Of a stretch of DNA of 64,000 nt, positions 23,660 through 60,551 are shown in pieces. The stretch spans positions 62,001 through 126,000 of the forward strand of contig NZ_JAOQNX010000002.1 of the NCBI RefSeq assembly GCF_025961575.1. The letters run 5' to 3'. The notes under the pieces are model-generated. The model made no database searches, was not told the origin of the DNA, and worked only from the letters and a program-made list of their open reading frames with translations. The DNA is from Rhodoblastus acidophilus. Lineage in GTDB: Bacteria > Pseudomonadota > Alphaproteobacteria > Rhizobiales > Beijerinckiaceae. The stretch's first letter is position 1. Every line of letters begins with the position of its first letter. A program made the translations under genes and the position numbers.

Positions 23660-23736
<77 letters not shown>

Positions 23737-23882
23737 AATCTTTGTTTTTTGTCGGTTCTCACTCAGACTGACTCTGATTCTCGCATTTTGACTCCTTTTC
23801 TCGATTTCGCTGACTCCTCATGTCAGGCGAGAGAATTTTTGATAATTTTGCAATGGCTTAGGTGATTCTCGAAGAGCAATTC

Positions 23883-39241: not shown

Positions 39242-39254
39242 TTCCTAAAAATCC

Positions 39255-39833
39255 TCAGTAGTCTTCGAAGAGTGGAAGATTAACTATTGAATCTGTCGGC
39301 TTGCCTTTGTTTTTGCGTCGTTCTGCCGTCTCGGCACCGGTGGGGTTCTCTGTCAGGGCGACCTTGATCGCCTTGCGCCATCCAATGTCCACGTCCTCGG
39401 CGGCCCCGGTCGTCGCTGAAGCCATGGAAAACAGCCACCAACGTTCTTCTGGCCGGAGCGCAACCCAATTTCGCAGCGCGTTGGGAATCAGCTCCTTCGG
39501 CGCCGCCTCAACGCCCCACGCCAATACGCAGAGTTCACGACCAAGAAGCCGTTCAACGCGATTGATGCCGCTGGTCCAACGGCTGGTCGAAAGCTTCTTT
39601 CCCTTCAGGCGTTCATTCAAAAGCCGCTTGGATTCTTCCGCGATCGCCGTCCAAGTGGCGCGAGGCAGCCTGCAACGGACGACGGTTTCCGGCAGACCAT
39701 TTGCGCCGCCCTTAAGCCCATAATCTTCAATGATGACCACCGGCTCAGTGCGCGCCGCCGGTATCTCCACCACGAAGTGGTGGGGGTCCATCTCGTTGGG
39801 CACACCGAAGCCGGTTGTCTTTTTGTCGCTCAT
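39255..39833 (-). CDS. DUF3780 protein of the anti-phage cassette
   Basis: A 192-residue protein: MSDKKTTGFGVPNEMDPHHF, then VEIPAARTEPVVIIEDYG and REL-CVLAWGVEAAPKELIPN. It matches DUF3780, which travels with DUF499 and DUF1156 in defence cassettes. No catalytic motif is visible; a structural or DNA-binding role is possible. The start overlaps the DUF499 stop by 4 bases (ATGA). Confidence 0.85.
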   Translation of the reverse strand: MSDKKTTGFGVPNEMDPHHFVVEIPAARTEPVVIIEDYGLKGGANGLPETVVRCRLPRATWTAIAEESKRLLNERLKGKKLSTSRWTSGINRVERLLGRELCVLAWGVEAAPKELIPNALRNWVALRPEERWWLFSMASATTGAAEDVDIGWRKAIKVALTENPTGAETAERRKNKGKPTDSIVNLPLFEDY

Positions 39834-42800: not shown

Positions 42801-42961
42801 AGAATCGACATGCCTCCGGTGACGTAAGTTTTCCGGAAAAACTGCTCGGCGGAGGAATGGCCGTGGCCGATCAGGTCTTCGAGGCTCTCGATCTGTTCGC
42901 TGAGGGCGTACTCGATGGCCTTCGGATCAAATTTACACGTGTCTCTTACGGTTTGCAGCAT
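39830..42961 (-). CDS. DUF499 ATPase of the anti-phage cassette
   Basis: A 1043-residue ATPase, first large gene of the operon. Walker A AMGGGKTH is at residues 76-83 and Walker B is LILLDELPPYF (D174, E175), as in DUF499/BrxC-like P-loop ATPases. The long C-terminal half has immunoglobulin-like or beta-sandwich segments (RWNLDGTNVKEGREYTGPIEIPGDGDVTLYAYAEDEGVE) that may bind partner proteins or DNA. In defence cassettes of this type the ATPase probably drives complex loading on phage DNA. Start ATG 42961 reads MLQTVRDTCK. Confidence 0.9.
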   Translation of the reverse strand: MLQTVRDTCKFDPKAIEYALSEQIESLEDLIGHGHSSAEQFFRKTYVTGGMSILLRQGLQRLAGVSGQAVFELKQAMGGGKTHSMLALGYLAANPSLSNLVPHEITKGFSPQQARVVAISGRSVSRDKHLWGDIAEQLGKAEEFLEFFKGAAQAPNEKDWIGLIGDEPTLILLDELPPYFSYAATQSVGGGTLAEVATYALSNLLSASLKLKRLCIVVSNLSGSYHGATQEISALVHKAIGNLQQEASRQAKGITPVDLGSDELYHILRTRLLTEKPDANIVDSVAAAFSEAISDAVKAKSVAKSAEQIAGDIDASYPFHPSFKHILALFKDNEKFRQTRGLMTLAAMMVRSVQERKLNDVYLIGCQHLDLSQQDIRDGVTHIYDLSGAIAHDIAGSGQERGHAQVIDEQMNSDAASQVATLLLMSSLPEANGAVKGLTQAQIIENLVAPHRSAIEFDDAFEKLRTECWYLHKRENDAWNFARNENLRKKIEKYAEGAPQPKIDAEMARRLTDAFEPKRKIAYSQVLALPKLDEIKTSAGRLLLVLSPDKRVPPEDAQKLFAAVPHKNNFCVVTGDGSDLGRLEDKVRRIWAVAKVRDEEGGDKSQNVAELNEEAENAEFDFLATLVNLFNRLYYPGRHPKDGECLIATPLKMSPTKSKDGKSNFVDGETAIESALAATGASKLYKEVDDTNIDALRMRAEQMLWIAGSERRARWKDIEEQAICNVRWTWLPPKGLDEIRKRALATGDWRDNNDGYVEKGPFPPSTTSVKAVTRSRDDSGKATIEVTAISAGPKAKILYSKSSDISEASDAVPDVVFDSDATVLWFLAVDPDGKFPTGAAEKWTNSLSLTHQPKDVMGKRTVTLDVKPRGKIRWNLDGTNVKEGREYTGPIEIPGDGDVTLYAYAEDEGVEAKKEFTIRASSGKTPIDPEKPAVVAKRMKLVTTAETFGVIKAAKKSKALFGNGVSVTVGKGDKNATTRFGPGTALNPETIESFISAARAAIGEDAAEVEIGFGEFKFESGRDLEEFLKEVSDFKVDPSDVQQ

Positions 42962-43880: not shown

Positions 43881-44213
43881 ATGCACGCCCGCATCATTTA
43901 CCCCGGAACTGGCCCGGACATCTATCGCCTATCCAAGGCTCTGACGGAGGACTTGGAGAAGATCGTCGCCGGCCTTGGGCCGACCGCCGCCGAATTGGCG
44001 TCAGCGCCCATCATCGACAACTGGTCGTTTGTGCCTCGACCGGAGATGGCGCTGGCAGGGCTGATTTCCGGCCATCCTCTCTTGGGGACAAAACACGGAA
44101 TCACATCAGAAATTTTCGCGTTGGACGAGACACGTTCGTGGGTCCGGACGTGGACAAGATGGTACCGCCTAGGCCGCCAAGCCGGCGTTGACGATGATCG
44201 GAAATCCCAATGA
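43881..44213 (+). CDS. DUF6634 family protein
   Basis: A 110-residue protein that reads MHARIIYPGTGPDIYRLSKA and later LISGHPLLGTKHGITSEIFALDETRSWVRTWTRWYRLGR. The GHPxLG...I-T-S-x-x-x-A-L-D...W-x-R-T-x-x-R-W-Y-R-L-G pattern matches what I recall of DUF6634, small proteins of mobile regions in rhizobia. It starts 6 bases after GGAGAACGATC (good ribosome-binding site) and its stop overlaps the FtsH-like start (ATGA). Role unknown. Confidence 0.65.
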   Translation: MHARIIYPGTGPDIYRLSKALTEDLEKIVAGLGPTAAELASAPIIDNWSFVPRPEMALAGLISGHPLLGTKHGITSEIFALDETRSWVRTWTRWYRLGRQAGVDDDRKSQ

Positions 44214-46168
44214 CCGACGACGACAGGCCTGACGACAGCGACGACGACGACTCCAGGAACGATGTCGTCGCTCCCTGCCCTTCCGACGGAAGGAAAAAGC
44301 GCTTGAAAACGTCCGCGCGCCGAGAGCTGATCGACCTGATCGTCGGTCAGGCTGTTGGCGCCTCGCTCATGCGGCGGCTGAAAACTCTAACCGGGAGGCC
44401 GCTCGTCGTCTCGGTGAAAGCTCCGGGCGCGGACTGGTGCAAACCGCTGGTTGGCGCGTTTCTTCGAACAAACGCCATGGCCATCCTCCGGGACGGTTCC
44501 ACGAAGGGTGACAATGCCGAGAAAGGCAACGATGTCGTTTCCGAAGCTCTGAGCGAGGGCAAGCATGTCGTCGGTGTCAGCCATCTACCGGAGGCCCTGC
44601 TGCCGGCGACACTGACGCGGGCCGCCGACGCGCGGGTGGAGGCGAAGCATCCCGATGGCAAAATTATCCGGCGGCTGATCTCTATGTGCGTCGGCAGACC
44701 GCCGAAGAACATTCCCGAAGACATCGTCGCCGGGCTGTCGTTCGACGACATCGTTTCGGCCTTCCGGCGCGGCGCGACGCCGTCGCAGGTGGTTGCGGCG
44801 CTGGCGGCGGCGTCCTCCGCGAAGTGCCGCGTCTCCGTTGAGGACAGCACGCCGCCACTGGACCGGATGCCCGGATATGCGCGGGAGCTGCGGGAGTGGG
44901 CGTTCGCCCTCGCAGAGGATGTCGATGCATGGCGGCGCCACGAACGGGAGTGGCGGTCGATCTCGTCGTCTGTCGTTCTCGCCGGCCCGCCGGGCACCGG
45001 AAAAAGTTTGTTCGCACGATCACTGGCGGCCACTCTTAAGGTTCCGATGATCGCGACCTCTGTCGCCCAGTGGTTTGGGACGACCGCCGGCTATCTTGAT
45101 TCCGTGATCAAGGCTGCCGACGCCGCGTTCGAGGGCGCACGCGCCGCCGCTAGGAACGGCGGCACGGGGTGCCTGCTCCTGCTCGATGAACTCGATGCGA
45201 TTCCGAACAGGAACAATGTCGATGATCGGCATGCAGCGTGGTGGACGACCCTGACGACCGGCCTCCTGCTCAGGCTGGACTCGGCCACCAGCGACCGCGA
45301 GGGCGTCATCCTTGTCGGCGCGACCAACCATGTCGAGAACCTCGACCCCGCGCTCATCAGGCCGGGCCGCTTCGACAAGATTCAAGTCGTTGGTTTTCCT
45401 GACTCGGTTGGGCTTGCAGAGATTATTTCCTTCCACATGGACGGCGCCATGTCGCCTGCCGATGTCCTGCCGCTTGCCCGCACGCAGGCCGGTTCGACGG
45501 GCGCCGAGGCAGCGCAGTGGGCGAAGGACGCGCTCAGGAGGGCGCGGACGGCGGGGCGGAACGTCTGTTTCGACGACCTCGTCGCCGCCATCACCAGCGG
45601 CGCCGAGATGTCGCCGGGCGACCGCCGGGTGACCGCCATCCACGAAGCCGGCCACGCCGTCGTCGGCGTCGTCGTCGGCAGGAGGATCGAGGCCGTCTCC
45701 ATCCTGAGCAAGGGAAGCACCGCAGGCGCGACGTCGATGCGCCGCGCAGGCAGCTGCTTCCTCCCGATGGACGATATCGAAAAGGAAGTCACCGTGCTGC
45801 TGGCAGGCAGGGCGGCGGAGATGGTCGTCCTCGGACGGGCGTCCGGCAGCGCCGAAAGCGATATCCGGGAGGCGACGAGCCTCGTCGCCGCCGCGCACGG
45901 CAGCTTCGGCCTCGGCGACGACCTGCTGTACCGCGGGTCGAGAGAAAAGGCGACCGAGCTGATCACGTTCGATCCGGCCTTCCGGCGTCTGGTCTCCGAG
46001 CATCTCGGCAGGCTGATGGACGCGACGCTCGACATCGTCAGGCGCGACCGGGCCGCGGTCGAAGCCATCGCCGACGCGTTGGTCGAGCGTGGATATGTCG
46101 AGGGCGACGACGCCGAGCGGATCGTCAAAGGCGCCGCGCCGATCATCGAAAAAGGAGACACACGATGA
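44210..46168 (+). CDS. Soluble FtsH-like AAA+ zinc protease (M41)
   Basis: A 652-residue protein combining an AAA+ ATPase and a zinc peptidase. Walker A GPPGTGKS is at 259-266, Walker B is LLLLDELDAI, the second region of homology is GATNHVENLDPALIRPGRFDK, and the M41 site HEAGH is at 478-482. Unlike FtsH, the N-terminus has no membrane helix; instead a highly acidic start (DDDRPDDSDDDDSRND) precedes a 250-residue unknown domain. It would therefore work in the cytoplasm, degrading unknown substrates. It is coupled to the DUF6634 gene and the small gene after it by ATGA overlaps at both ends, and stands just upstream of the Tn7-like genes on the same strand. Confidence 0.85.
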   Translation: MTDDDRPDDSDDDDSRNDVVAPCPSDGRKKRLKTSARRELIDLIVGQAVGASLMRRLKTLTGRPLVVSVKAPGADWCKPLVGAFLRTNAMAILRDGSTKGDNAEKGNDVVSEALSEGKHVVGVSHLPEALLPATLTRAADARVEAKHPDGKIIRRLISMCVGRPPKNIPEDIVAGLSFDDIVSAFRRGATPSQVVAALAAASSAKCRVSVEDSTPPLDRMPGYARELREWAFALAEDVDAWRRHEREWRSISSSVVLAGPPGTGKSLFARSLAATLKVPMIATSVAQWFGTTAGYLDSVIKAADAAFEGARAAARNGGTGCLLLLDELDAIPNRNNVDDRHAAWWTTLTTGLLLRLDSATSDREGVILVGATNHVENLDPALIRPGRFDKIQVVGFPDSVGLAEIISFHMDGAMSPADVLPLARTQAGSTGAEAAQWAKDALRRARTAGRNVCFDDLVAAITSGAEMSPGDRRVTAIHEAGHAVVGVVVGRRIEAVSILSKGSTAGATSMRRAGSCFLPMDDIEKEVTVLLAGRAAEMVVLGRASGSAESDIREATSLVAAAHGSFGLGDDLLYRGSREKATELITFDPAFRRLVSEHLGRLMDATLDIVRRDRAAVEAIADALVERGYVEGDDAERIVKGAAPIIEKGDTR

Positions 46169-46395: not shown

Positions 46396-46814
46396 TGCTC
46401 TTCAGTCCGATTTCTTCAATCTCGAGTCGATCGATTCGATCGCTACTTCCGGAAAACGCTGGGTATTTTCGGAAACCAACATTGGGGCGACTCAATTATC
46501 GCCGGTCGTCAAGATAGATTCTGCAATCGTCTTGGCTCATATTTGCGCTGTTCCGCACGGGGCGCGTTGGTGCCTCGCTGGAGTCGAGGAGACCGACGAA
46601 GAAAGCTTAGCCTAATAAGAACGCTCCGAGGATTTGCGTCCCCGGAGCGCGCATAAATCCACGCCGTTCGACCGATTGGGAAAGGGAGCGAACGGCATTT
46701 CACCGACGTCGCTGCCGCGACGGCGACAGGGACAATTTGCGCCGGCCTCCACCCGAACGTCAAGCGCGAATATCCCTGACCGAAGCGGCGGACGTCCTAA
46801 CGGGGACGACCACA
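46396..46814. other. Region upstream of tnsA, expected site of a transposon end
   Basis: A 420-base non-coding stretch ahead of tnsA. In Tn7-type elements the end with TnsB-binding repeats lies here. Two loosely similar stretches (TTCCGGAAAACGCTGGG near 46448 and TTTCGGAAACCAACATTGGG near 46468) are visible but too divergent to call as binding sites. An open frame running into tnsA from 46737 begins with TTG and is not used. Confidence 0.4.
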
Positions 46815-47630
46815 ATGGCGGAAACCGAAGGCGGCGCCAATTGCACCCCCATGCCATTATGGCGGGGCGTGGACATAGAGAACGAGCGCCGTTTTGCGCT
46901 TGATAAGAGGGTATTTAACACTGCGGCCACCATTGTCGTTGCGGAGAACGGCGGTCCGCTGCGCACGATCGTGACCGGCGGCAAGATCCACTACACGGGC
47001 GACTTCCAAAGCCGCAAGAACGGACGGACCTGCTCGTGGGAATCGGAGCAGGTCGAGCTGCCCGGAATGATGGAAGCCGAGGTGCTCACCACCGTAAAAT
47101 GGTGGCTTGCTCAGCCCTTCCGGTGCGAGATCCAGGACGGCCCCAAGAAGCTCGTCTACACGCCAGATCAAGTGCGCCGCGTGCTGGAAGGCGACACGTG
47201 GCGTGTCCTCGTTATCGAGTACAAGCGGGACTTATCCGAGGCCGAAAGGGACGAGGACTACGCGCGCAAGCTGGATGCGTTCAGGCAGCTCTGCCGCGGC
47301 GTGGGCTGGCGGTTCGAAATCCGCGACAAGAAAAGCCTCGGCACGCCGACCTACCGCCGCAATGTCGAAATGATTGCACTCGACCGGCGGACCCACGTGG
47401 CGCTGCGAGACCTCGACGCCATCCGCGCGCTCGCCGAGGACGGCGCCTTCGCATACGGCGCGGGATGCGAAAGACTCGGCGGCTACGTGGCCGGCAAAAA
47501 GAAACTGCACGCGATGATGGTGCGCCGTCTGGTCTCGATTCCGCTGACCCGCACAATCCTCCGCGATACACCTGTCGCGCTCGTCGATCGCTCGCGCGAG
47601 CCGATTGGCGGCAGCGGCCTGTTCGACTGA
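46815..47630 (+). CDS. tnsA: TnsA-like endonuclease
   Basis: A 271-residue protein of the TnsA family, which cuts the 5' ends of the transposon during cut-and-paste transposition. The catalytic core is a restriction-endonuclease fold: an E in SWESEQVELPG (E76 or E78), D118 in VYTPDQV, and E135/K137 in VLVIEYKRD. A wHTH C-terminal part (RNVEMIALDRRTHVALRDLDAIRAL, then RLVSIPLTRTILRDTPV) follows. ATG 46815 is preferred over TTG 46737. TnsB starts 9 bases after its stop. Length matches Tn7 TnsA (273). Confidence 0.9.
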   Translation: MAETEGGANCTPMPLWRGVDIENERRFALDKRVFNTAATIVVAENGGPLRTIVTGGKIHYTGDFQSRKNGRTCSWESEQVELPGMMEAEVLTTVKWWLAQPFRCEIQDGPKKLVYTPDQVRRVLEGDTWRVLVIEYKRDLSEAERDEDYARKLDAFRQLCRGVGWRFEIRDKKSLGTPTYRRNVEMIALDRRTHVALRDLDAIRALAEDGAFAYGAGCERLGGYVAGKKKLHAMMVRRLVSIPLTRTILRDTPVALVDRSREPIGGSGLFD

Positions 47631-47639
47631 GGCGGGCCG

Positions 47640-50000
47640 ATGGGGACGCAACTGATCCTTGATTTCGGGCGCGAGGCCGTCGTGACGAAGCACGCGCTGA
47701 AGTCCGGCGACGTCTACGAACTCGACGGTGTGCGGTACGTTTACAATCAGTCATTCGCCGCTCCCGAGGGCACGGCTCCCGAGGATTGGGCGGAACTGAA
47801 CGAATACCTCTTCCTCAGGGAGCGCGACGGAGTCCGGCTGCAACTCACCGAGCGCAGGCTCGACGAGTTAATCTACGACCGTCTGTTCAAGCCGGCAAAG
47901 GAGGGCAAGTCGCTGCCGCGACCGCTTCCGCCCGATGGCCCCAAGGACCCCAAGGCGCGGATGCGTCAGTTCTGGTGCGAACGCTACGACGAAATCCAGC
48001 CCATGAAGTCGGACGCCTCGCTGAAGGCGTTCGTCGAGGACGTGATCGCCAAGTATAAGAACGACGCCGAGTTCCAAGGCTTTCCCGGTTACCCGGAGAA
48101 AATCCCTCATTACTGGTCCATCTGCGACTGGGTCGAAAAGCGGGGATATCCCGGTTGCCGCCCCCTGTACTTGATGTGTTCGAAACGCTCCGGACGCAAC
48201 CATTTTCCGCGCGTCGTCGAGGATCTGATCAACGAGGCGATCGTCTGGTATTGGAGCGGGACTACGCGCGATCGGGTGAGCGCCCACATCCAGATCAAGG
48301 AGGCAATACGGCAGCTCAACAAGAAGGCGGAGCAGGATGGTGGCAAGCCGCTGCCAGTGCTGGCCTATTCGACGTTCTGCCGCAGGGTGTTCGAGTCCGA
48401 GAACAGAGCGACGTGGGGCGCCAAGTACGGCGAGAAGGCGGCGATAGCGCGCTTCGACGGCACGAACCCGCTGCCGGAGGCGAAGCGGATACTCCACGTC
48501 GTGTTGATCGATTCCACGACCGTGGACACGCACCTCGTTCTCGGAGACGACCTCCTGCCATTGGGCAGGCCAACGGTGAATTTCGCCGTGGACCTCTATT
48601 CGCGAGCGCTGCTCGCGATCTTCCTCACCTTTGAGCAGCCCAACCTCCACATGGCTATGGCGACACTTAAGAGGGTGCTGCTGCCGAAGCTGGATCTGAT
48701 GAACGCATTCCCCGAAATGCGGGTCACGCTGGAGCCGTATGGCACGCCATCGATCGTCGTCGTGGACAACGCGTGGGCGCAGGCGGGACACTCATATCGC
48801 GACGCCTGTGCCGACATGGGCATCGACCTGCGCTTCGCGCCGATCCATACGCCGCAAGCGAAGCCTTACGTTGAGCGGATCGTCGACACGTTCCACCGGC
48901 TCGTCTTCCACAAGGCGCCGGGGGGCATCCCCTACGACACCAAGGTTCTCCGCAAGCTCGGCTTCGATCCGCAGAAGACGCAAGTCCTCGACATCAACGA
49001 GCTTTGGGAGCGGGTGATCGAGGCCATGAACGTCTACCACCTCAAAGAGCACGACGGCATCGGCGTGGCGCCGATCATTGCATGGAGGGCAAGCGCCTTG
49101 GTTCACGGCATAGACGTATGCCCGAACCCGGATCATCTCGAAGCCGCCGCCGGCGAGGTGCTCGAGGCCAGCCTGACGCGACAGGGCATCAAGCTCGAAG
49201 GCGTTGTCTACCACGACCAGCGAACCGTGACGCACCTGATGGACAGGTTGGCGCCCATCGATTCATTGAAGTCAAAGCGCCGGACCTCGCAGCGCGCGCG
49301 TGTGAAGATCAAGCGCAACCCGGCGGACCTGACAGTCATCCATGTCTGGAACCGGCGCGACGAGGAATACGTGCCGCTGCCAGCGGATAACGCGAATTTC
49401 CTTATGGGCCTGACCAAGACTCAAGCCAAGACCATCAAGATCATGGCGGAGCAGGCCGGACTGCCGTTCGACACGGACGTGGAGTGCTGCAAGGCGCGCG
49501 TTCAGCTCATCCAGAGACTGGAGGACGCCAAGCCACAGTGGCTGAAGGATGAGGAGAAGAAGCGGCAACGCATTCTGCTCGCCGATCGCCCCGGGCTGAT
49601 CTCCGGCAGCATTCTCCGCGTCGCCGCCGCGCCCGCCCGCCACGATGGCATGGCGCCGATCATCGACGAGTCTGGCGTCCACGTCCCCATCGACCACGGA
49701 AGGCGCGCCGGCGGGGGCGAAGCCGTAAAGGGTTCGCGGCGCGGCGGGAAAGCTGCAACCCGCAAAGCCACGGCGACCCGGCGCAACTCCAAGGCGCTTT
49801 CGGACGCCCTGAACGCGCAGGCCGCGGCAGAGCGCGAGAGCCCTTCGGTCAAAACAGTGCATCCGGCGAAGGTCGAGTTTTCGGTGCCGCCGCGTTCGCC
49901 GCCGTCCGAAGGAAAGCTTTCAATGCGCGAGCAAATTTTGGCCAGCCTGGCGGCATCAGAGGGATGGGGCCCGGGCTCCCAGCCATCGAAGAAGGAGTAG
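47640..50000 (+). CDS. tnsB: TnsB-like DDE transposase
   Basis: A 786-residue Mu/TniA-type transposase that joins 3' ends to target DNA. The RNase H catalytic triad is D291 (VLIDSTTVD), D376 (VVVDNAWAQ) and E412 (KPYVERIVD); D376 to E412 leaves 35 residues between, a DD35E spacing. N-terminal helix-turn-helix domains (residues about 80-270) bind the ends; the C-terminal beta barrel and tail (Arg/Ala-rich, ending PGSQPSKKE) contact TnsC. TnsC begins 5 bases after its stop. The C-terminal 100 residues are low-complexity. Confidence 0.93.
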   Translation: MGTQLILDFGREAVVTKHALKSGDVYELDGVRYVYNQSFAAPEGTAPEDWAELNEYLFLRERDGVRLQLTERRLDELIYDRLFKPAKEGKSLPRPLPPDGPKDPKARMRQFWCERYDEIQPMKSDASLKAFVEDVIAKYKNDAEFQGFPGYPEKIPHYWSICDWVEKRGYPGCRPLYLMCSKRSGRNHFPRVVEDLINEAIVWYWSGTTRDRVSAHIQIKEAIRQLNKKAEQDGGKPLPVLAYSTFCRRVFESENRATWGAKYGEKAAIARFDGTNPLPEAKRILHVVLIDSTTVDTHLVLGDDLLPLGRPTVNFAVDLYSRALLAIFLTFEQPNLHMAMATLKRVLLPKLDLMNAFPEMRVTLEPYGTPSIVVVDNAWAQAGHSYRDACADMGIDLRFAPIHTPQAKPYVERIVDTFHRLVFHKAPGGIPYDTKVLRKLGFDPQKTQVLDINELWERVIEAMNVYHLKEHDGIGVAPIIAWRASALVHGIDVCPNPDHLEAAAGEVLEASLTRQGIKLEGVVYHDQRTVTHLMDRLAPIDSLKSKRRTSQRARVKIKRNPADLTVIHVWNRRDEEYVPLPADNANFLMGLTKTQAKTIKIMAEQAGLPFDTDVECCKARVQLIQRLEDAKPQWLKDEEKKRQRILLADRPGLISGSILRVAAAPARHDGMAPIIDESGVHVPIDHGRRAGGGEAVKGSRRGGKAATRKATATRRNSKALSDALNAQAAAERESPSVKTVHPAKVEFSVPPRSPPSEGKLSMREQILASLAASEGWGPGSQPSKKE

Positions 50001-50005
50001 TGGAG

Positions 50006-51085
50006 ATGGACGACAGGAAACGGACGTGGTCGCAGGATTATCGGGCGCTGCATTGGGCGATCAACGACGCGCCCGACGTCACCATGCACCCGGACTACGA
50101 TCGTCACATTGCGGAGTTCCGGAACATATTCATCGAGCACCCTCGTCTCACCTACATGCACAAGGCTTTCAACAGCCTCAGGAGGGAGGCGCTTATCAAT
50201 CGCGGGAAGGAGCAGTTCGTCGTGCCTGTCATCGGGCCATCACAGTCGGGCAAGACGACGGCCATCGAGAGCTATGTTGAATTGATCAAGAAAAAGAAGG
50301 ACATACCAAAGGGCCACATGCCTGTCGTGCGCGTCAACCTTTCGCCGCGCTCGAGCTTGAAGCAGTTCCAGTCGGACATTCTGGCTCCCCTCGTCATTGA
50401 CGACACGGGCTATTGCGACACTTCCGAACTCACCAGCGGGACGGAAGCCGAGTTCCGGGCCCGGGTTCGGCGCTATGCTGAGCTTCGAAGGACCGAATTG
50501 ATCGTAATCGACGAAGCGCAGCACGTTCTTCGGGCCAACAACCCCCACAGGGCGAAGCAAGTGGCCGACATGGTGAAGCTGATGTCGATCGAGGGAGCGA
50601 CGGCCTTTGCCGTCGTCGGCACCGAGGAGTCGTGGCCGATCTTCCACTCCAATGGAGACCAGACGCCCTATCGTTGCATGGAGCCGTTGATCCTCAGCCC
50701 GCTCGACTTCGAGGACGAGAAGGAAGCCAAGATGTTCAAGGGCTACGTCGCCTTGCTGGACGAGAAGCTCACACAGCATCACTTAACGTCCGAATACAGC
50801 GATTTCGCTGAAGGAGATATGCCAGCCGCCTTTTGGGAGGTGACCCGCGGAATTCTGGAACGCGTGTCGCGGGTCGTCAGAACCGCTTGGCAATATTCTT
50901 TTGCGCTCGGCTCTCCTCGCGTGGAAAGGATGCACCTCGCCGCGGCGATCGACAGGTGGGCATTCCCTCTCAACCTGTGCCGCACTAATCCCTTCCGCGA
51001 CGGCGCCCGCGAAATCCACGTGATCAAGGACGAATGGGTTAGGAATCCCTCTCCTGAGAGGGCATGGGAAAGAGCCTGCATATGA
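50006..51085 (+). CDS. tnsC: TnsC-like AAA+ ATPase
   Basis: A 359-residue ATPase of the TniB/TnsC family that links target recognition to the transposase. Walker A is GPSQSGKTT, Walker B is LIVIDEAQHVL, followed by FAVVGTEESWP as sensor. The ATG at 50006 reads MDDRKRTWSQDYRALHWAIN and follows GGAGTAGTGGAG; a longer frame upstream to 49964 overlaps the TnsB end. The stop overlaps tniQ by 4 bases (ATGA). Confidence 0.9.
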   Translation: MDDRKRTWSQDYRALHWAINDAPDVTMHPDYDRHIAEFRNIFIEHPRLTYMHKAFNSLRREALINRGKEQFVVPVIGPSQSGKTTAIESYVELIKKKKDIPKGHMPVVRVNLSPRSSLKQFQSDILAPLVIDDTGYCDTSELTSGTEAEFRARVRRYAELRRTELIVIDEAQHVLRANNPHRAKQVADMVKLMSIEGATAFAVVGTEESWPIFHSNGDQTPYRCMEPLILSPLDFEDEKEAKMFKGYVALLDEKLTQHHLTSEYSDFAEGDMPAAFWEVTRGILERVSRVVRTAWQYSFALGSPRVERMHLAAAIDRWAFPLNLCRTNPFRDGAREIHVIKDEWVRNPSPERAWERACI

Positions 51086-53076
51086 CCCGCTATGGCGTAA
51101 GCAGGGCCGAAGACCTGCCCGACGAGATCGGGATTGCAGTTACGGACACCGAGGGCGGAACGCTAAAGTCTTTCGTCGGCACAACGGGACCGATGCCCGA
51201 TGAAAGCTTGATCGGGTGGCTCGCTCGCACAGCCGCTTTCAACGCCCATCGCTCGCTGGTTAAGACGCTCTGGAGCAAAGTGGGCGTCCGCGCCCCAAGC
51301 CCAGCCGCGATCAGCCAGTCGCTGCGGGGCGAGGCCGCGCGTGTTGCCTTTCTGCTCAGGGCGGACCCCAATGAAGTGTTGGCGCGCGCCTGTCCGGAGA
51401 TTGTCGGCGCCGGCTCGGCGGCCCGCATCGACTTTTTCGGCGTTCCGATCAGGCCACACTATCGCAACCTCGGCGTCAGACGCGTGTCGCCGCTGGCGCT
51501 GCGCCAAAGTGGGTACCATCGCGCCGTGTGGGAACTGAGGCCGCTCGCCTTCGATCCGGGCACGATGGAGCGCCTGCTCCAGAACTGCCCGGTCTGCGGG
51601 AGCGTCCTCGGATGGCGCCGCACCTTCGGGATATGCCATTGCGACCGCTGCAAGGATCGTCACCGGCGCCCGACCGTGGATCTCCGCGCTTTCCCGCAGC
51701 CGCTCGTCGAGGTGGAAGACATGGAGGCGCTCGCCTTCGTGGCCTCCCTCGTTGACCCGCTTCGCTCCGAACCGACCGTTTGGGGTTCGCGCCTTTCGTC
51801 CGAGGTGCGGGAGCTCTCGCGCGGAGAAATGTTCGACCTCTCCGTGGCGCTCGCCGCCGTGTTGGAAAACGACTCGCTGCCACCGGGCGAGCGGCGCGCG
51901 CTTCGGTTCTCAAAGGCGGTGGGGGCGCTGGGCCTTGAGCCGAGGTTCCTCGCTCTCGCCGGCAGGGCGTTGCTCGACTGGCCGAGGGGCTTCTTCCGCG
52001 TTGCCGACGCTCTGCGCGAGGGCATGGACGAGCGGGGGGGCGCCTTCGGCCTAAACAAGGAGCTGGGATCCCTCCTGCGGGCAAAGCGCGCCGCCCGTTT
52101 CGGCGGGCGCGTGGACGCCCTGCTCGACCGAGGCATCGCCGCGGACGTGGCGCGCACGGACATGGACGAGCTGCTGCTGAGGCGCGAGGAGTACCGCTCG
52201 GCGAACAGGATCAACGTGCGCGAAGCCGTGCGTGAGTTCGGCATCGATCAGGACAGGCTGGTGCGGCTCGCAGACAGCGGCGCCCTCAAGTGCGTCCGAC
52301 ATCGTCGCATTATCGTCTTCGACCGCGCCGAACTCGAAGAGGTCATCTTGCAGCGCGCCGATGCCGTCGGCGCCATGAGGACGGCGGCGCTGATCGGCGT
52401 CCCACTCGGCGCCCTGCCGGACCTCACGGCGCACGGCCTCGTTGAGAAAATCAAGGGACCGGTGGTGGGGATGCTGAAGGAAAAGGAGCAGTACCGCCTG
52501 TCGGCGCTTGACGCACTGCTGGCGAAGCTGCGGGACCGGGCGCATGAGCATGCCCGAGTAGGAGACGAGCGGCTGACGCTGTCGGCAAGTCACCTGTTCG
52601 TTGGCCCCAAGCCGTGGGCAGGAATCGTCGAGGCGGTGCTGTCGGGCATGCTTCCTGTGCGCTCGCTGAATAATCGACTGGAAGGCGTCCTTGACCGCAT
52701 GGCCGTTGACCCAGACGAGTTCGGTGTCCTGTCAGCGCGCTTCGGCACACCGGTCGCGGCTGATCTCGACGGAATGACCAATTACGTCGAGGCCGCCGCG
52801 TTCTTCGGCGTTTCTCGCGCCTGCTTCAGCGAGCTGACATCGGCAGGACTGCTGCCGGCGCGCGACCGCGTCAACCTGCGCATCCGGCGCGGCGACCTCG
52901 CCGACTTCGCCGACAAATTCCTGTTCACCGGGGAGGCTGTGCGGCGACTTCGCCTGACAAAGGCCGAGGGGATCGCCTTCCTGCGAGCACAAGGGGTCGA
53001 ACCTGTCGCCATCATGCTCAAGGGCAAGATGCAGCTTTGGGCCAAGGCGGACGTGCAGGTGTTCTTCGTGGCCTGA
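51082..53076 (+). CDS. tniQ: TniQ/TnsD-family target-selection protein
   Basis: A 664-residue protein. Residues 1-190 form a TniQ domain: PMPDESLIGWLARTAAFNAHRSL, then CPVCGSVLGWRRTFGICHCDRC with the zinc-binding cysteines. Downstream are repeated helix-turn-helix-like units (NVREAVREFGIDQDRLVRLADSGALK; YVEAAAFFGVSRACFSELTSAGLLP), suggesting a sequence-specific DNA reader, like TnsD which targets a fixed chromosomal site. The targeted site is unknown. Starts at ATG 51082, overlapping tnsC. The long C-terminal array of winged helices is larger than in stand-alone TniQ. Confidence 0.88.
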   Translation: MTRYGVSRAEDLPDEIGIAVTDTEGGTLKSFVGTTGPMPDESLIGWLARTAAFNAHRSLVKTLWSKVGVRAPSPAAISQSLRGEAARVAFLLRADPNEVLARACPEIVGAGSAARIDFFGVPIRPHYRNLGVRRVSPLALRQSGYHRAVWELRPLAFDPGTMERLLQNCPVCGSVLGWRRTFGICHCDRCKDRHRRPTVDLRAFPQPLVEVEDMEALAFVASLVDPLRSEPTVWGSRLSSEVRELSRGEMFDLSVALAAVLENDSLPPGERRALRFSKAVGALGLEPRFLALAGRALLDWPRGFFRVADALREGMDERGGAFGLNKELGSLLRAKRAARFGGRVDALLDRGIAADVARTDMDELLLRREEYRSANRINVREAVREFGIDQDRLVRLADSGALKCVRHRRIIVFDRAELEEVILQRADAVGAMRTAALIGVPLGALPDLTAHGLVEKIKGPVVGMLKEKEQYRLSALDALLAKLRDRAHEHARVGDERLTLSASHLFVGPKPWAGIVEAVLSGMLPVRSLNNRLEGVLDRMAVDPDEFGVLSARFGTPVAADLDGMTNYVEAAAFFGVSRACFSELTSAGLLPARDRVNLRIRRGDLADFADKFLFTGEAVRRLRLTKAEGIAFLRAQGVEPVAIMLKGKMQLWAKADVQVFFVA

Positions 53077-53107: not shown

Positions 53108-53560
53108 ATGGTGGCGCGAATGATCCGGATGGAGGAGGTCTTGGGAATCGATTTTGAAGCCCTCAGGGCGGAGTGGATGTCGGGCCGGCGCTGGATCGTC
53201 ACGTTGCGCCCAGTCGGACCGGTCTGCAAAGCCAACAGGGTCGCAGTCACGGTGCTCGACCCTGACACGCGCACCGTTCTCGTTGAAGCGAAGATCGGAC
53301 GCAGCGACAGCGTCAAATTTATCGATATTCTTTCGCTGCTCTGCCGGACGCACGGCGCCCCTGTCGCGATCGCGATCGAGCGCGAGGCGCTGCCGATCAG
53401 CGCGCGGTTTTCGGTCTTCGTCCATGGGCTCGGAATTGACGTTTATCAGATGCCCGGATCGAGCCTGATCAGGCGCACACCCTTGCCGCCCCCCAAGGAC
53501 TTGGAGTGGCCCGTGCCGAAGCGGCCTAATCGATGCGTTCGCAGGGGAGGCGCAAAATGA
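53108..53560 (+). CDS. RNase H-fold integrase-like protein lacking catalytic residues (150 aa)
   Basis: Reads MVARMIRMEEVLGIDFEALR and then RWIVTLRPVGPVCKANRVAV, VLDPDTRTVLVEAKIGRSDS. It aligns with the next protein and with retroviral-type integrase cores: RWIVTLRP versus RWVLDACP, and LDPDTRTVLVEAK versus IDADTRLLLDVYI. The first aspartate (D in LDAC) is a threonine (VTLR), the second (D in FVDYA) is replaced (AIAIERE), and the glutamate region is missing, so it is probably inactive. It starts 31 bases after tniQ and its stop overlaps the next gene by 4 bases (ATGA). Possibly a structural partner. Confidence 0.6.
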   Translation: MVARMIRMEEVLGIDFEALRAEWMSGRRWIVTLRPVGPVCKANRVAVTVLDPDTRTVLVEAKIGRSDSVKFIDILSLLCRTHGAPVAIAIEREALPISARFSVFVHGLGIDVYQMPGSSLIRRTPLPPPKDLEWPVPKRPNRCVRRGGAK

Positions 53561-54378
53561 AGATCTCGGTTTGCGGAGACGGCCGCCGCCTGAGGGGCAT
53601 AGCAAAGAGGCTGAGGTCGCGATTGGCGACGAATGGCAAAGATATCGGCGTGCTGGAGTCACGAAATCTCGTCGCAAGAATGTTCGGGTACCTAGACGTT
53701 CACCATGCAAGCTTTGCCCGCTGGGACGATGAGCAGGCGCCGCTCGACGGGTTCGCCTCGCCCGAAGTGGAGGAGACCAGGCGCGCGCATTACGTGGACG
53801 TCCTCGTTGAATGGGGGCTTGATGAAGACGAGGCGCGACAGGTCGTCCACGACATCGGTCCGTCAAGGCGCGAAGTCTGGCGCGCGGGGCGGCGGCGTAA
53901 GCCGATCCTCGCAGACGTTTTCTGCAAAGACAGCGAGGCGCAGCCCCTAGACGCGGGCGCGCAGGGCGATCAGCCGCCGGTTGTCCCGAACAGAAATCTC
54001 TTTGCGCCGACGAGGGCAACACGGGCCAAGATCGCGGGGGAGATGCGCTGGGTTCTCGACGCGTGCCCGGCGGGATTTCCGGGCGTGACGAATGCCGGGT
54101 GTTGGGTCGCGATCGACGCCGACACTCGCCTGCTCCTTGACGTCTACATAAGGTCGGACGATCGAGCCAACGACGAGGTCAATTTCCTCCGGCACCTGCT
54201 AGTAAAGTTCGGCTGCCCTCGTCAGCTTTTCGTCGATTACGCCTTGTGGTGTTCGGAGGAATTCAGGGACGCCGTTGTGCGTCAGGGCATCGATCTGTTC
54301 GTCGGCACAAAACCGTGGGCTGAGATCGCCGAGCGGGTGCTGTTGCGCGAGATTCGGCGCGCTCGCTATAGGGAGTAA
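53557..54378 (+). CDS. Minimal RNase H-fold integrase-like protein with D,D,E set (273 aa)
   Basis: Reads MKISVCGDGRRLRGIAKRLR; the C-terminal half is an integrase core: D168 in RWVLDACPAGF, D227 in LFVDYALWCSEEF and E256 in TKPWAEIAERV. The block KPWAE aligns with KPYVE of TnsB and FVDYALWC with VVDNAWAQ. The interval between second D and E is only 28 residues (35 in TnsB), so loops are trimmed. The N-terminal half (LSSRDRLA-like helices, FGYLDVHHASFARW) is unrelated to TnsB. It ends at 54378 and is the last gene of the module. It may be a second recombinase or an accessory DNA-binding factor; no family name is known to me. Confidence 0.6.
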   Translation: MKISVCGDGRRLRGIAKRLRSRLATNGKDIGVLESRNLVARMFGYLDVHHASFARWDDEQAPLDGFASPEVEETRRAHYVDVLVEWGLDEDEARQVVHDIGPSRREVWRAGRRRKPILADVFCKDSEAQPLDAGAQGDQPPVVPNRNLFAPTRATRAKIAGEMRWVLDACPAGFPGVTNAGCWVAIDADTRLLLDVYIRSDDRANDEVNFLRHLLVKFGCPRQLFVDYALWCSEEFRDAVVRQGIDLFVGTKPWAEIAERVLLREIRRARYRE

Positions 54379-55630: not shown

Positions 55631-55675
55631 AAACCCGGCTCCCGGACGCACGCCGAAATTTTGAGGGCATCGCAT

Positions 55676-57571
55676 ATGCATCTCGCTTCCATTTCAATAT
55701 CGAATTTCAGGTCCTTCGAGCGCGAAGAGATCACCTTGACCCCGCATGTCAGCATTCTCGTCGGCGAGAACAATGGGGGGAAGAGCAACGCCATCGACGC
55801 GATAAGGCTTCTCATTTCTCCGCTGAACGAGCGGCGTGAAATCTATTGCGAGCAGACCGATGTGCGTTTCGGTTCGGAAGCTCGCCAGTTCGAGATATCC
55901 GCGACGTTTGAAGGCTTGAGTCCTTCGCAGCAGGGCAGGTTTATTTCGGCGGTCATTGACCAGAAGATGGACACGGCTGTCCTTGGGATGACCTATGATG
56001 AGAAGCTGGGGCGCATACCCGCGCGACCGAGCTATTGGGGCGGACAGTTCAAGGCCGAACCGGAAGCCGGATGTCGAGACATGGTGCGGCACGTCTACCT
56101 GCCGCCGCTAAGGGACGCCAAACGCGCGCTCGCTTCAGGAAATCCCACGCGGATTCATGCACTCCTACAGCATTTTCTTGGGGAAACGGATCCGAAGGCG
56201 TTGGCTCAACGCCTCGGTCGCCAAGCCCATGACGAAGTTCTCAAGGCTGTGGACATGGCCGTTGACGACAATCTCAAGCAGCTTTCTTCAGGGGTCCGCA
56301 AGCAGGCATCTTCGCTGGGGTTCTCTTCCGACGAAACCCTCATAGACATCGCCCGCGACCTTCGCTTCAAGCTCGCAGATCACGGGATCGAACCGGAGGA
56401 TCTGCGCTATTCCGGCCATGGGTACGCCAACCTGCTCTACATGGCGACGATCGCGGTCGAACTCGAAAAGGTCGGGACCGCCGACCTGACCCTGTTTCTT
56501 GTCGAGGAGCCTGAGGCGCACCTGCACCCGCAGCTACAGGCCGCAGTCCTTTCGTTCCTTGAGGAGCAGGCGGAAAAGTCTAGAAAGAAGCAGACTGGCT
56601 TTGGGCCAGCCGGACAATTGCAGGTCGTCGTGGCGACGCACTCCCCAAACCTTTCTGCATGGGTGCCGTGCAAGAACCTGATCGTGATCAAATCTCAGCC
56701 GGCGCAAATCACAGCGGTCGCAAGCGCACCAGAAAACGGGTCAGACGCATCAGCAGCAACGGCGACAACGGCGACAACGGCGGCGGCAACTCAAGAGCCG
56801 GCAGCGGAGCCCACCCGTCAGGAAGCAACTTCTGCTGCTGCGGCTCAGGATTCATTGCGCAGATCGACGCGTTGCGTCCCGCTCAGTGTGCTCGAAATGA
56901 GTGCCGCCGATCTGGCGAAGATCGATAGATACCTCGACGTGACCAAGTCATCCTTTCTGTTCGGAGGCAGAACCCTGCTCGTCGAAGGCATTGCCGAGGC
57001 GATCCTCTTTCCCGTGTTCGCAAAGCAATACGTGCTGAAGGAATCCATTGAGAAAATGCGCGCCTTCCGCACCGCCGTGTTCGTGCCTATCGACGGGGTC
57101 GATTTCAGGCCGTACGCCAGCTTGCTACTGACTCCCCACAATGGCGTTCGAGTGGCCGACCGCCTCGTCGTCGTAACTGATGGCGACGGCTTCAAGGCAG
57201 CTCCGGGAGAGGTGGCGCCGGGCGCGAAAAGGAAGACCGAGTTGGAGGCGCTCGCCACGGGCCTGAATGCCGCTGACGTGCTTGATGTCATGATCAACAC
57301 CTATTCGCTGGAAAGCGAACTGGTCGAGGCGGGGAACGGCGACATCCTGAAGGAGATATACCTCACATTTCATTGCAGATCGGAAGAAAAATGGGACGCA
57401 GCCGTCGCGAAGACCGGGCTCGATAGGGCAAAGGCGATACAGTCGTTGTTCGAGGACACGCGAAAGGGCGACTTTGCACAGAGGCTGGCCGAGCGCCTGT
57501 CCGGCGACCATCCGCCGGTCTTCCATGTTCCGAATTATATTAAGGAAGCGATCGAGGCTCTGGTGCGATGA
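55676..57571 (+). CDS. gajA: Gabija GajA, OLD-family ATPase/Toprim nuclease
   Basis: A 631-residue protein with an ABC-type ATPase (Walker A GENNGGKSN at 30-38; signature YSGHGYANLLYMA; Walker B LTLFLVEEPEAHLHP) and a Toprim nuclease domain (LLVEGIAEAILFPVF with the catalytic glutamate; VVTDGDGFK with DxD). GajA is a sequence-specific DNA nicking enzyme that is released when nucleotides are depleted. Between the ATPase and Toprim lies an Ala/Thr-rich insert (about residues 341-405; PENGSDASAATATTATTAAA). ATG 55676 is used; ATG 55661 would add five residues. It overlaps gajB by 4 bases (ATGA). Confidence 0.9.
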   Translation: MHLASISISNFRSFEREEITLTPHVSILVGENNGGKSNAIDAIRLLISPLNERREIYCEQTDVRFGSEARQFEISATFEGLSPSQQGRFISAVIDQKMDTAVLGMTYDEKLGRIPARPSYWGGQFKAEPEAGCRDMVRHVYLPPLRDAKRALASGNPTRIHALLQHFLGETDPKALAQRLGRQAHDEVLKAVDMAVDDNLKQLSSGVRKQASSLGFSSDETLIDIARDLRFKLADHGIEPEDLRYSGHGYANLLYMATIAVELEKVGTADLTLFLVEEPEAHLHPQLQAAVLSFLEEQAEKSRKKQTGFGPAGQLQVVVATHSPNLSAWVPCKNLIVIKSQPAQITAVASAPENGSDASAATATTATTAAATQEPAAEPTRQEATSAAAAQDSLRRSTRCVPLSVLEMSAADLAKIDRYLDVTKSSFLFGGRTLLVEGIAEAILFPVFAKQYVLKESIEKMRAFRTAVFVPIDGVDFRPYASLLLTPHNGVRVADRLVVVTDGDGFKAAPGEVAPGAKRKTELEALATGLNAADVLDVMINTYSLESELVEAGNGDILKEIYLTFHCRSEEKWDAAVAKTGLDRAKAIQSLFEDTRKGDFAQRLAERLSGDHPPVFHVPNYIKEAIEALVR

Positions 57572-59310
57572 CCGTGAAGCGTTTCGATCCGACCGCGCAG
57601 CAGGCAGCCGTCATCGGTCATGTCGGTTCGGCTTTCGTGGAGGCTTGTCCAGGAGCGGGTAAGACACGGGTCATGGTTGAACGGGCGCGGAGACTGCTCA
57701 GTTCCAGAACGGCAACGCAGGGCATAGCTTTTCTGTCTTTTACCAATGCAGCGATCGATGAGTTGGCTTCGAGACTGCGGCGAGAAGGAATCGTTTCGCC
57801 GACACCATTCCCGCATTTCTTGGGAACTTTCGACAGCTTTCTGTGGAGCTTCTTCGTTGCCCCCTTTGGCGCGCCAGACTGCCCTTTGCCACCGAGGCTG
57901 ATGCCTGACATGGAGCGCATTCAAATCAAACCTTACGACGGAGCGCGGCCTTTGCCGCTCTCCTGCTTCGACAAGGTCACGGGGAGCATCATCGTCGGGT
58001 CAAGAGATTTAGGGGGCTTCGATCCGACGCAACGCAGCGCCAGAGCTTATGAGACCGCTGCCAAACAAATTCGGCAGAGCCTGAGCGAGAAAGGTTTTCT
58101 CGACTACGGAGACGTTAGATCGATCGCGTTAGCGCGCATCGCCGATTCGACGACTGCGTCCCGCTTGGCTGCTGCTTTGGCTACCCGTTTCAGCGAAGTC
58201 ATTGTGGACGAGGCTCAGGATTGCAATCCAGACGACTTGAACGTGATCCGCTGGCTCCGCACATCCGGCATCCCGACCATGGTGATCTGTGACCCCCATC
58301 AGTCGATCTATGGCTTCAGGGGCGGCGTAACGGATCATTTGTTCGCATTTCGAGATGAATGTTCAGTCTCCAAGCATTTGCCCATGTCGGGGAATTTCCG
58401 GTCGAACGCCGCCATCTGCAACGGGATCGTCGCGCTGAGGAATAAGGATCATCGCGACCAAAGGGATGAGCCGCTGGGACTGAACAAGGACGATGCCACG
58501 CCCGTTCACATTCTCTCCTACCGCGGAACGCTGTCATCAGCCGTGGGCGAGGCATTCAAGAAATTGCTGGACGACCATGGCATCGAAGCCTCGGCCTGCC
58601 CCGTGTTGGCCACCACGCGAGACTGTGGCGGTAACGCGATCGGCCAGCCTGCGTCGAACAAATCCGAACACATGTCCATTCGATTGGCGAGCGCCGTCAG
58701 CGAATTTCATTTCGCCGGCGAACCCAGCGAACGTATCGCCGCGATGGAAGCTCTCCACCAGATAATCCTCAAGATGGAGGGGCGTCTCGACGGCACGACC
58801 TACCGGAAGTATTTGTCCGAGGGCCGCATCAAGCCCGACAGTTGGCGCCCGCGCGTGATTTCCCTCATGGATGCGTTGCGGTACGACGCGACGACCTTCG
58901 CGACCCCAGACGCATGGCTGGAACGCGCTCGAACTGTATTGGCGGAATACGCGACGGGTGGCAGGTCAATGGGCCAGCTGCTTCGCTCAACAACAGACCT
59001 TGGCAATGCGCTGGCCACGCCCTCGACTTTGGAACTCGCAGCGCGCACGATCCACTCCGTGAAGGGCATGGAGTTTCCCGCTGTGTGCGTGGTCCTGAGC
59101 ACCGCTATCGCGAAAGGCGTCATCGATCACTTGATTGATGGGGGTGGCTCTGAAACCGCGCAGGAGAACGCGAGAAAAATCTATGTAGCGGCCTCGCGCG
59201 CTGAGAGATTGCTTGTATTCGGCGTTCCCCACAAGCAGGCGCGAAGGTTTGGAGACCATTTGATTTCGAATGGCGCGCAGGTAGTCCACGGTGAGATGAT
59301 TGCTCAATAA
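57568..59310 (+). CDS. gajB: Gabija GajB, UvrD/PcrA-like helicase
   Basis: A 580-residue superfamily 1 helicase. Motif I ACPGAGKTRV, motif Ia FLSFTNAAIDELASRL, motif II VDEAQDCNP, motif III QSIYGFRGG, motif V TIHSVKGMEFPAVCVV and motif VI YVAASRAERLLVFGV are all present. With gajA upstream it forms the two-gene Gabija system, in which GajB senses DNA ends and consumes ATP, triggering GajA. The start codon overlaps the gajA stop. Its 3' end lies 38 bases before an IS1595-family insertion. Confidence 0.92.
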   Translation: MTVKRFDPTAQQAAVIGHVGSAFVEACPGAGKTRVMVERARRLLSSRTATQGIAFLSFTNAAIDELASRLRREGIVSPTPFPHFLGTFDSFLWSFFVAPFGAPDCPLPPRLMPDMERIQIKPYDGARPLPLSCFDKVTGSIIVGSRDLGGFDPTQRSARAYETAAKQIRQSLSEKGFLDYGDVRSIALARIADSTTASRLAAALATRFSEVIVDEAQDCNPDDLNVIRWLRTSGIPTMVICDPHQSIYGFRGGVTDHLFAFRDECSVSKHLPMSGNFRSNAAICNGIVALRNKDHRDQRDEPLGLNKDDATPVHILSYRGTLSSAVGEAFKKLLDDHGIEASACPVLATTRDCGGNAIGQPASNKSEHMSIRLASAVSEFHFAGEPSERIAAMEALHQIILKMEGRLDGTTYRKYLSEGRIKPDSWRPRVISLMDALRYDATTFATPDAWLERARTVLAEYATGGRSMGQLLRSTTDLGNALATPSTLELAARTIHSVKGMEFPAVCVVLSTAIAKGVIDHLIDGGGSETAQENARKIYVAASRAERLLVFGVPHKQARRFGDHLISNGAQVVHGEMIAQ

Positions 59311-59348: not shown

Positions 59349-60551
59349 GGCGCAATTCAACTTGAATGTTGATAATGGACGGCGCGAGCCAGCCAGCGCC
59401 CTTTATCCCGCGGCGAATGCGGCTTGCAGCGTGTCCTGAGGGGCGGATGGCGGGCGGCAAACCAGTCGCAGCATGGCGAGATAGTTTGGCAGGAATTTCG
59501 TTGATACGCCGCGCAGGACTCGGTTGATCAGGGTTTTCATCCTCTCGTGGTGGCCGTTGACCCGACCGAGGCCGAGCGCGCCCTTCTGGCGCGACGGATG
59601 GCCCATCGCCTTCTTCAGCCAATCGTCTTCTGGCGGGTCGAAGACGCGATGCTCGGCGCCAACCGTTTTCGCCAGCGTGGCATAGGCCGACAAGCCGTCC
59701 GTGCAGAGGACGGAGTCAGGCGCAACCGCCCCGCCGAGCGCGGCGACGATCTGGTCCGTGCTGCGCCGGTCCATTCGCTTATCGATGCAGCGGCCATCAC
59801 GGTCAATGCCGGTCAGGACCGGAACGTGCTGGTGCGACAGTCCCGACAAAAGCGCTTTGGAACCGGGGTAGCGCGGCGGGCGATTCTCCGGTGCCTTGCC
59901 TCGCTTCCAGCCCCTGTGTCCTTTGAAACTTCTCAGAAAAAACGTCTCGTCCGCCTCGACGACGCCGCCCAGGCGCTCCGGCTTCGTCGCCGCCAGCGGG
60001 GTGAGCAGCCGGTGGCGCCAACGCCACGCCGTGTGCCGACTGATGGCCATGTCGGAGCACTCGACAATCTTCGTCAGCGACGTTCCCGAGGCGAGATGCC
60101 TGGCGTATCCGCTCCAAAGTTCGGGCTTGCGCATCCGGGCGAAAGCCGTGCCGGACAGGCCGTTGAAGGTCCGCCCACAGCCATGCGACTCGTCGGTCTT
60201 CAGGCAGCGGAAACGCTGCCGACCACCTCCGTCTCGTCCGTGTCGGACGATCTTCGTTCCGGAGCAGTGCGGGCATTGGCGGACGGCTGTCGTCCGCCGG
60301 GCGACCAGCGCCTCGGAGACGCGCTCGGCCAGCAGACGCGCGGTGCGCGTCTCAAGATCGAGCAGTTGCTCGACCGTGGCCTGCGCGGCGATCTCTTGCG
60401 TCAGCGTCTCGAATCTGGCCCTGTCCATGCTCGTCGCCCCGTTCTCGCCGGAAGATAGGCGAACGAAGGCAGAACATCAATTGCTGGCAGGCCGGAAACG
60501 CCTGATTTTCAAGGGGTGTAGTTAAAATCAACAGTCAAGTTGAATTGCGCC
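59349..60551 (-). mobile_element. IS1595-family insertion sequence (1203 bp)
   Basis: Terminal inverted repeats of 25 bases: GGCGCAATTCAACTTGAATG... at 59349-59373 and its near-perfect complement at 60527-60551 (one mismatch, A to C). An 8-bp direct repeat ACCCACGC flanks both ends (59341-59348 and 60552-60559), the target duplication expected for this family. One transposase gene, on the minus strand, fills most of the element. The intact repeats suggest a recent insertion. Confidence 0.95.
59403..60428 (-). CDS. IS1595-family transposase (ISXO2-like)
   Basis: A 341-residue transposase. A zinc ribbon (CPHCSGTKIVRHGRDGGGRQRFRC, then HGCGRTF) at residues 52-88 precedes the DDE nuclease domain: D in VVEADETFF, D in LCTDGLSAY, and a last acidic residue in VNGHHERMKTLINRVLRG. 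The order zinc ribbon then DDE_Tnp_ISXO2 is typical of IS1595. The gene reads MDRARFETLTQEIAAQATVE. It appears full length and probably functional. Confidence 0.94.
   Translation of the reverse strand: MDRARFETLTQEIAAQATVEQLLDLETRTARLLAERVSEALVARRTTAVRQCPHCSGTKIVRHGRDGGGRQRFRCLKTDESHGCGRTFNGLSGTAFARMRKPELWSGYARHLASGTSLTKIVECSDMAISRHTAWRWRHRLLTPLAATKPERLGGVVEADETFFLRSFKGHRGWKRGKAPENRPPRYPGSKALLSGLSHQHVPVLTGIDRDGRCIDKRMDRRSTDQIVAALGGAVAPDSVLCTDGLSAYATLAKTVGAEHRVFDPPEDDWLKKAMGHPSRQKGALGLGRVNGHHERMKTLINRVLRGVSTKFLPNYLAMLRLVCRPPSAPQDTLQAAFAAG

Follow-up and report, generated by a model that had tools for sequence, protein, structure and literature searches.

A translationally coupled pair of shortened integrase-core proteins encoded behind tniQ in a Tn7-like transposon of Rhodoblastus acidophilus

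Directly behind its tniQ gene, a Tn7-like transposon of Rhodoblastus acidophilus carries two coupled open reading frames for proteins of 150 and 273 amino acids, here termed P150 and P273, which are related to each other and to the catalytic cores of DDE transposases. We suggest that both would be accessory proteins of an intact, tRNA-Arg-associated element, each with a shortened DDE core, and that they act as non-catalytic partners or regulators of the transposase TnsB, a reading to which we assign a probability of roughly 40%. In its core genes the transposon is an ordinary one of the Tn7-like type; what is new is the accessory pair of integrase cores.

The transposon and the gene pair

The window (the whole stretch of 64,000 nucleotides that was analysed) contains the left end and the core gene cluster of an element of about 45.5 kb. 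The element is complete in sequence; positions beyond the window are given as extended coordinates, that is, as the window continued with L070. The relevant features are the following.

23660..23736, + strand: tRNA-Arg (TCT), the attachment site; the element starts 13 bp past this tRNA
23750..23819, + strand: left end, TGTCGGTTCTCACTC..., with a TnsB-type repeat at 23798 and TTTTT ahead of it at 23745-23749
43881..44213, + strand: DUF6634 protein, the first of the core gene cluster
44210..46168, + strand: FtsH-like AAA and peptidase M41 protein
46737..47630, + strand: TnsA-like endonuclease
47640..50000, + strand: TnsB transposase with an intact DDE triad (D291, D376, E412; DD35E)
49964..51085, + strand: TnsC/TniB AAA ATPase
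51064..53076, + strand: TniQ/TnsD-like protein of 670 amino acids with an HTH array
53108..53560, + strand: P150, a predicted integrase (RNase H-like) core of 150 amino acids without catalytic residues or Glu helix
53557..54378, + strand: P273, 273 amino acids, an N-terminal Glyoxalase_8-like helical domain and a predicted C-terminal minimal integrase core (D168, D227, and E259 or E256)
Extended coordinate 69276 (L070 position 5276), beyond the window: right end, inverted TGTCGGTTCTCACTC, followed by TTTTT at 69277-69281

TnsA, a DDE-type TnsB, a TnsC AAA ATPase and TniQ are thus encoded in a single cluster, and the element is bounded by TGT...ACA ends (TGTCGG...) with repeated TnsB-type sites and a 5-bp target duplication (TTTTT). 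TnsB-type repeats (TTCTCGATTAGnTTGACTCGTC) occur close to the left end and in two further places, 64.8-65.0 kb and 68.7-69.2 kb; with at most six mismatches allowed, 104 kb contain 11 sites, all of them in or close to the left end or in the stretch from 64.8 to 69.3 kb. Two extra repeat clusters at extended positions 64839-64971 and 68709-68866 (L070) lie inside the right end (69.05-69.28 kb) and are possibly old or nested ends. A search of the genus for an empty site found the tRNA-Arg flank in 11 of 11 genomes, and no other genome that matches across the junction. A miniature of about 0.57 kb in genome G123 (L112, 3231-3799) has a nearly identical left end and sits 14 bp downstream of another tRNA; tRNA targeting therefore characterises this family of ends.

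The cargo includes several defence genes. An AlbA_2 protein follows the gene pair, and then come the Gabija genes gajA and gajB (window 55661-59310; PADLOC E 7.6e-291 and 9.3e-241), behind which lies an IS1595-like transposase gene; its inverted repeats of 25 bp are at 59349-59373 and 60527-60551. Further upstream in the element, at 33417-42961, a PLD helicase, a DUF1156 methyltransferase, DUF3780 and DUF499 make up a defence set listed by PADLOC, and a protein with a T6SS Tle1-like phospholipase domain is encoded at 30597-32162.

Both reading frames of the pair, described in an earlier note on this DNA, exist and are open, and the genes stand in the cotranscribed order tnsABC-tniQ-P150-P273. 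P150 begins 32 bp downstream of the tniQ stop codon; several in-frame start candidates exist, and its exact start is uncertain. The ATG of P273 at position 53557 overlaps the P150 stop codon as ATGA and is preceded by AGGGGAGG, a good ribosome site, so that the translational coupling proposed earlier is well founded; an upstream start at 53533 would give a longer P273 of 281 amino acids. In their choice of synonymous codons the two genes are like the tns genes (for the pair, z is 7.2 and 8.3 relative to uniform recoding), with z 3.0 for a long antisense reading frame.

Predicted integrase cores of P150 and P273

The alignment of P150 with P273 in the earlier note is borne out by BLASTP (E 2e-4, 28% identity over 99 amino acids) and by a Smith-Waterman score (z 6.5) that none of 500 shuffles equalled. 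A profile with two rows, P150 and the C-terminal portion of P273, matches IS3-type transposases, which occur in multiple copies in genome G947, at E 4e-4, with the match falling on the columns around the second Asp. The profile comparison with rve and TnsB families that had been proposed as a check bears out the relationship as well: the pair aligns with a 44-row profile of the TnsB core at a score of 31.6, the null maximum from 150 column shuffles being 19.3. With the DDE core of TnsB and rve proteins (Pfam PF00665, both Tn7-like and IS3-type), the pair shares the order of its predicted RNase H-like core elements, the spacing around the second Asp and similarity at the profile level; it differs from them in that the loop is shortened, that P150 has lost catalytic residues, and that the proteins are too short for a transposase and carry no N-terminal end-binding domain, no barrel and no Mu_C domain. 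None of these flanking domains was found by Pfam, which has no match for either protein apart from a weak one to Glyoxalase_8; the PDB sequence search, PHROGs, PADLOC and NCBIfam have no match for P150 and none above cut-off for P273. Tyrosine recombinase families are missing from the Pfam and NCBIfam matches of both proteins, an absence from match lists that does not amount to proof.

An AlphaFold2 model of P150 (five sequences) has the strand and helix order b-b-b-a-b-a-b, with pLDDT values of 76-89 across most of the core, and the RNase H fold that the earlier note had expected is seen in this predicted structure. Foldseek places retroviral integrase cores at E 5e-5, with 81 chains below 1e-3, and VIA superimposes the model on residues 57-140 of HIV-1 integrase with a Z of 10.4 and an rmsd of 2.2 over 83 residues. 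This match ends ahead of the catalytic loop and the helix that bears Glu152. It should be kept in mind that the models of P150 and P273 were built on five to six sequences that include IS3 transposase cores and are hence not independent of the homology to IS3. P150 had been described as devoid of all three acidic positions; this holds for the first, which is T32, and for the third, which is missing, while the second is still acidic (E91). P150 cannot be catalytic.

P273, which had been described as a minimal integrase-like protein, turned out to be a two-domain protein. Its first 110 residues or so form a separate helical domain, modelled with pLDDT values mostly of 75-95 over residues 10-50 and 70-100. 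Residues 20-58 of the 281-amino-acid reading frame match Glyoxalase_8 (PF20066) at E 0.049, with 14.1 bits against a Pfam gathering score of 23.7. Among the 199 genomes of the family, two proteins besides P273 itself match this protein, both to the N-terminal domain only. One, in genome G142, which itself matches Glyoxalase_8 at E 1.6e-4, is a plausible relative of that domain; the other, in genome G125, was discarded as a 40-residue stretch within a membrane-like protein. The P273 domain and its G142 relative resemble only the N-terminal part of Glyoxalase_8, both below the Pfam cut-off, and the P273 domain differs from that family in being fused to an integrase core. The core itself is modelled with low pLDDT; its best matches are still integrase cores, although below significance and with a Z of at most 6.0, and its putative RNase H-like nature is supported by the homology to P150.

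The earlier note had assigned D168, D227 and E256 as the catalytic set of P273. The two aspartates are in place. In the alignments with IS3 transposases and with the TnsB profile, however, it is E259 that stands opposite the catalytic Glu ('AER' against 'NER' and 'VER'), which would give a DD31E spacing, as compared with DD28E for E256; the third acid is therefore more likely E259. The tail of P273 (LFVGTKPWAEIAERVL) is identical at 12 of 16 residues to residues 511-526 of TniQ (LFVGPKPWAGIVEAVL), and a pattern of the form G..PW..vi..ll.G recurs in the TniQ proteins of related elements. Because of this resemblance, the match of KPWAE to KPYVE of TnsB is unsafe as evidence for a catalytic Glu, and the alignments cannot decide whether the end of P273 is a true Glu helix or a TniQ-like tail. 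The two segments are also similar as DNA (window 54295-54342 and 52594-52641), which is consistent with a shared segment and falls short of proving a duplication. With E259, the loop is four residues shorter than that of TnsB, with E256 seven, and the chain stops 14 residues past E259; P273 has none of the domains that follow the core in DDE transposases, and neither barrel nor end-binding domain. The description of P273 as active-looking is thus doubtful, given a misassigned or uncertain third acid, a short loop and the missing domains C-terminal to the core, and by itself P273 is probably no working strand-transferase. Profile, fold and gene order sustain the earlier view to the extent that the pair derives from a transposase-type integrase core and has at least one dead member; the case for an active one is weak.

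Small TnsB-like proteins in related elements

Searches with P273 or with the combined profile of the pair found no orthologue of the pair in 994 genomes; this includes 199 genomes of the family, for which P273 alone was used, and 385 genomes from the class together with the full set of 11 from the genus, for which the profile was used. Plasmids and viral contigs yielded none either. A TnsB search of genome contigs returned only two Brevundimonas loci, both without the pair. Searches with TnsB in 397 genomes of the order and 385 of the class revealed elements with the same order ftsH-tnsA-tnsB-tnsC-tniQ in genomes G512, G413, G232, G273 and G556, the last with two elements; in none of these do P150 and P273 follow tniQ. 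An FtsH-like AAA and M41 gene lies beside tnsA in five to six related loci (L035, L036, L037, L038, L039, L040), at 30-36% identity to the copy in the window, and a search of a library of PMC papers found none that joins FtsH, Tn7-like elements and TnsB. Related elements at L037 3640-6069 and L038 4139-6682 directly adjoin gyrB, which suggests that this group uses a different target.

Four of these elements, all from one genus (those of G232 and G273 and both of G556), carry between ftsH and tnsA a small reading frame of about 141-149 codons, accompanied by a second one of 166-174 codons. The small proteins, termed minis here, match the TnsB core at a score reached by none of 150 shuffles, and one copy weakly matches Pfam rve (E 0.018); one of the G556 copies is frameshifted. 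With dN/dS values of 0.29-0.31, the minis are under purifying selection. Neither Glu of their EIAE-like motif is invariant, which speaks against catalysis as their conserved role. In a direct profile comparison, the minis and the R. acidophilus pair are not significantly similar (the score was reached by 139 of 150 shuffles), and we therefore do not call them one family; they would have arisen independently or have diverged past detection. The two closest TnsB relatives, in G512 and G413, have no mini-like reading frame beside their tns genes.

Other TnsB fragments occur upstream of tnsA. Genome G587 encodes two TnsB-like proteins there, of 428 and 360 amino acids, in which an HTH and a degenerate core can be made out by eye; neither has a Pfam match, and the larger one gets no better than E 0.019 against the TnsB-core profile. 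In G142 (L046, 6704-8905), a TnsB-like protein with N-terminal similarity to the R. acidophilus TnsB (E 1e-4) has a Mu_C barrel above the Pfam cut-off and no catalytic core; a separate barrel-like protein of 126 amino acids and the Glyoxalase_8-like relative of the P273 N-domain are also encoded upstream of tnsA. The suggestion that described Tn7-like elements have no such pair consequently stands insofar as no recognisable orthologue was found in the relatives, and needs amending in that other small integrase-core or TnsB-fragment genes occur there in different positions. From seven element loci we put forward the hypothesis that small non-catalytic TnsB-like proteins are an accessory that recurs in this lineage.

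Possible functions of the pair

Translational coupling would allow P150 and P273 to be made in a fixed ratio. The two proteins might cap TnsB so that assembly happens on the proper target only, in the manner of truncated-transposase regulators. Tn5 Inh is such an inhibitory truncated transposase, produced from the transposase gene itself with its fold kept; like it, P150 and P273 would be element-encoded, transposase-derived and non-catalytic, whereas they are separate and strongly diverged genes. Alternatively, the pair may occupy or contact structural positions of the TnsB-TnsC-TniQ assembly. In the strand-transfer complex of the V-K TnsB, two of the four DDE domains play a structural part and are inactive; they contact the active subunits at the latter's N-terminal domains (PMC9527255). 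The use of non-catalytic DDE domains as a scaffold is the likeness that we propose for the pair; the inactive protomers of the V-K complex are copies of the active polypeptide in a different conformation, while P150 and P273 are encoded by separate genes.

The main rival to this reading is that the pair has been co-opted as a target selector that reads the target together with TniQ. Such a protein is TnsF of the Tn7-like element Tn6022, an inactivated tyrosine recombinase encoded beside tniQ (PMC10293859); this recombinase fold without catalytic activity occupies the very slot of P150 and P273 and follows the same logic of lost catalysis, and the additional helical domain of P273 could bind DNA or protein. 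The pair, however, is predicted to be RNase H-like rather than of the tyrosine recombinase type and consists of two proteins, for which a role in targeting is only putative, and P150 has no recognisable DNA-binding module. We regard a selector function as rather unlikely, since the TniQ of this element is already long and TnsD-like, with an HTH array of its own that suffices for tRNA targeting in known systems, and since the minis of the relatives sit upstream of tnsA and not after tniQ. It is highly improbable, in our view, that P273 works as a minimal DDE recombinase and that P150 serves it as a structural partner: although a Glu (E256 or E259) accompanies D168 and D227, that Glu lies within the TniQ-like segment, no Glu of the corresponding helix is invariant in the minis, and the shortened loop, the early end of the chain and the missing C-terminal barrel and end-binding domain all weigh against it.

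The loss of catalytic residues, the shortened loop, the lack of orthologues and the tail of P273, which possibly derives from a tniQ segment, could also be read as the marks of decaying remnants of a duplicated TnsB or of an insertion sequence. This we think improbable, because both reading frames are open, coupled through ATGA behind a good ribosome site and written in the codon use of the element, because the ends of the element and the target duplication are intact, and because the analogous genes of the relatives are under purifying selection. The border position of the pair, between the tns genes and those for the AlbA_2 protein, GajA and GajB, would in turn fit unrelated cargo, such as a part of the AlbA_2/Gabija defence block; we consider this a poor prospect in view of the 32-bp distance from tniQ, the ATGA coupling, the absence of PADLOC and PHROGs matches for the pair, and the fact that a different Tn7-like locus encodes, beside tnsA, a Glyoxalase_8-type protein related to the N-domain of P273.

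A broader proposal can be formulated, which we offer as speculation and ourselves rather doubt: dedicated non-catalytic TnsB-core proteins might be standing parts of the machinery in the FtsH-carrying lineage of Tn7-like elements, forming hetero-oligomeric transpososomes in which dead subunits license or limit transposition and are possibly turned over by the FtsH-like protease of the element.

CRISPR-associated transposases are built on Tn7-like transposases, and their strand-transfer complexes hold inactive DDE subunits for which the same TnsB chain is used. A natural element with non-catalytic cores as separate genes would, if our reading is true, provide a handle on the function of these subunits and on the restraint of transposition, and, with TnsF as the first case, it would be the second in which a Tn7-like element has recruited a dead recombinase fold. 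The stripped-down copies found in other such transposons suggest that these parts help or restrain the main enzyme.
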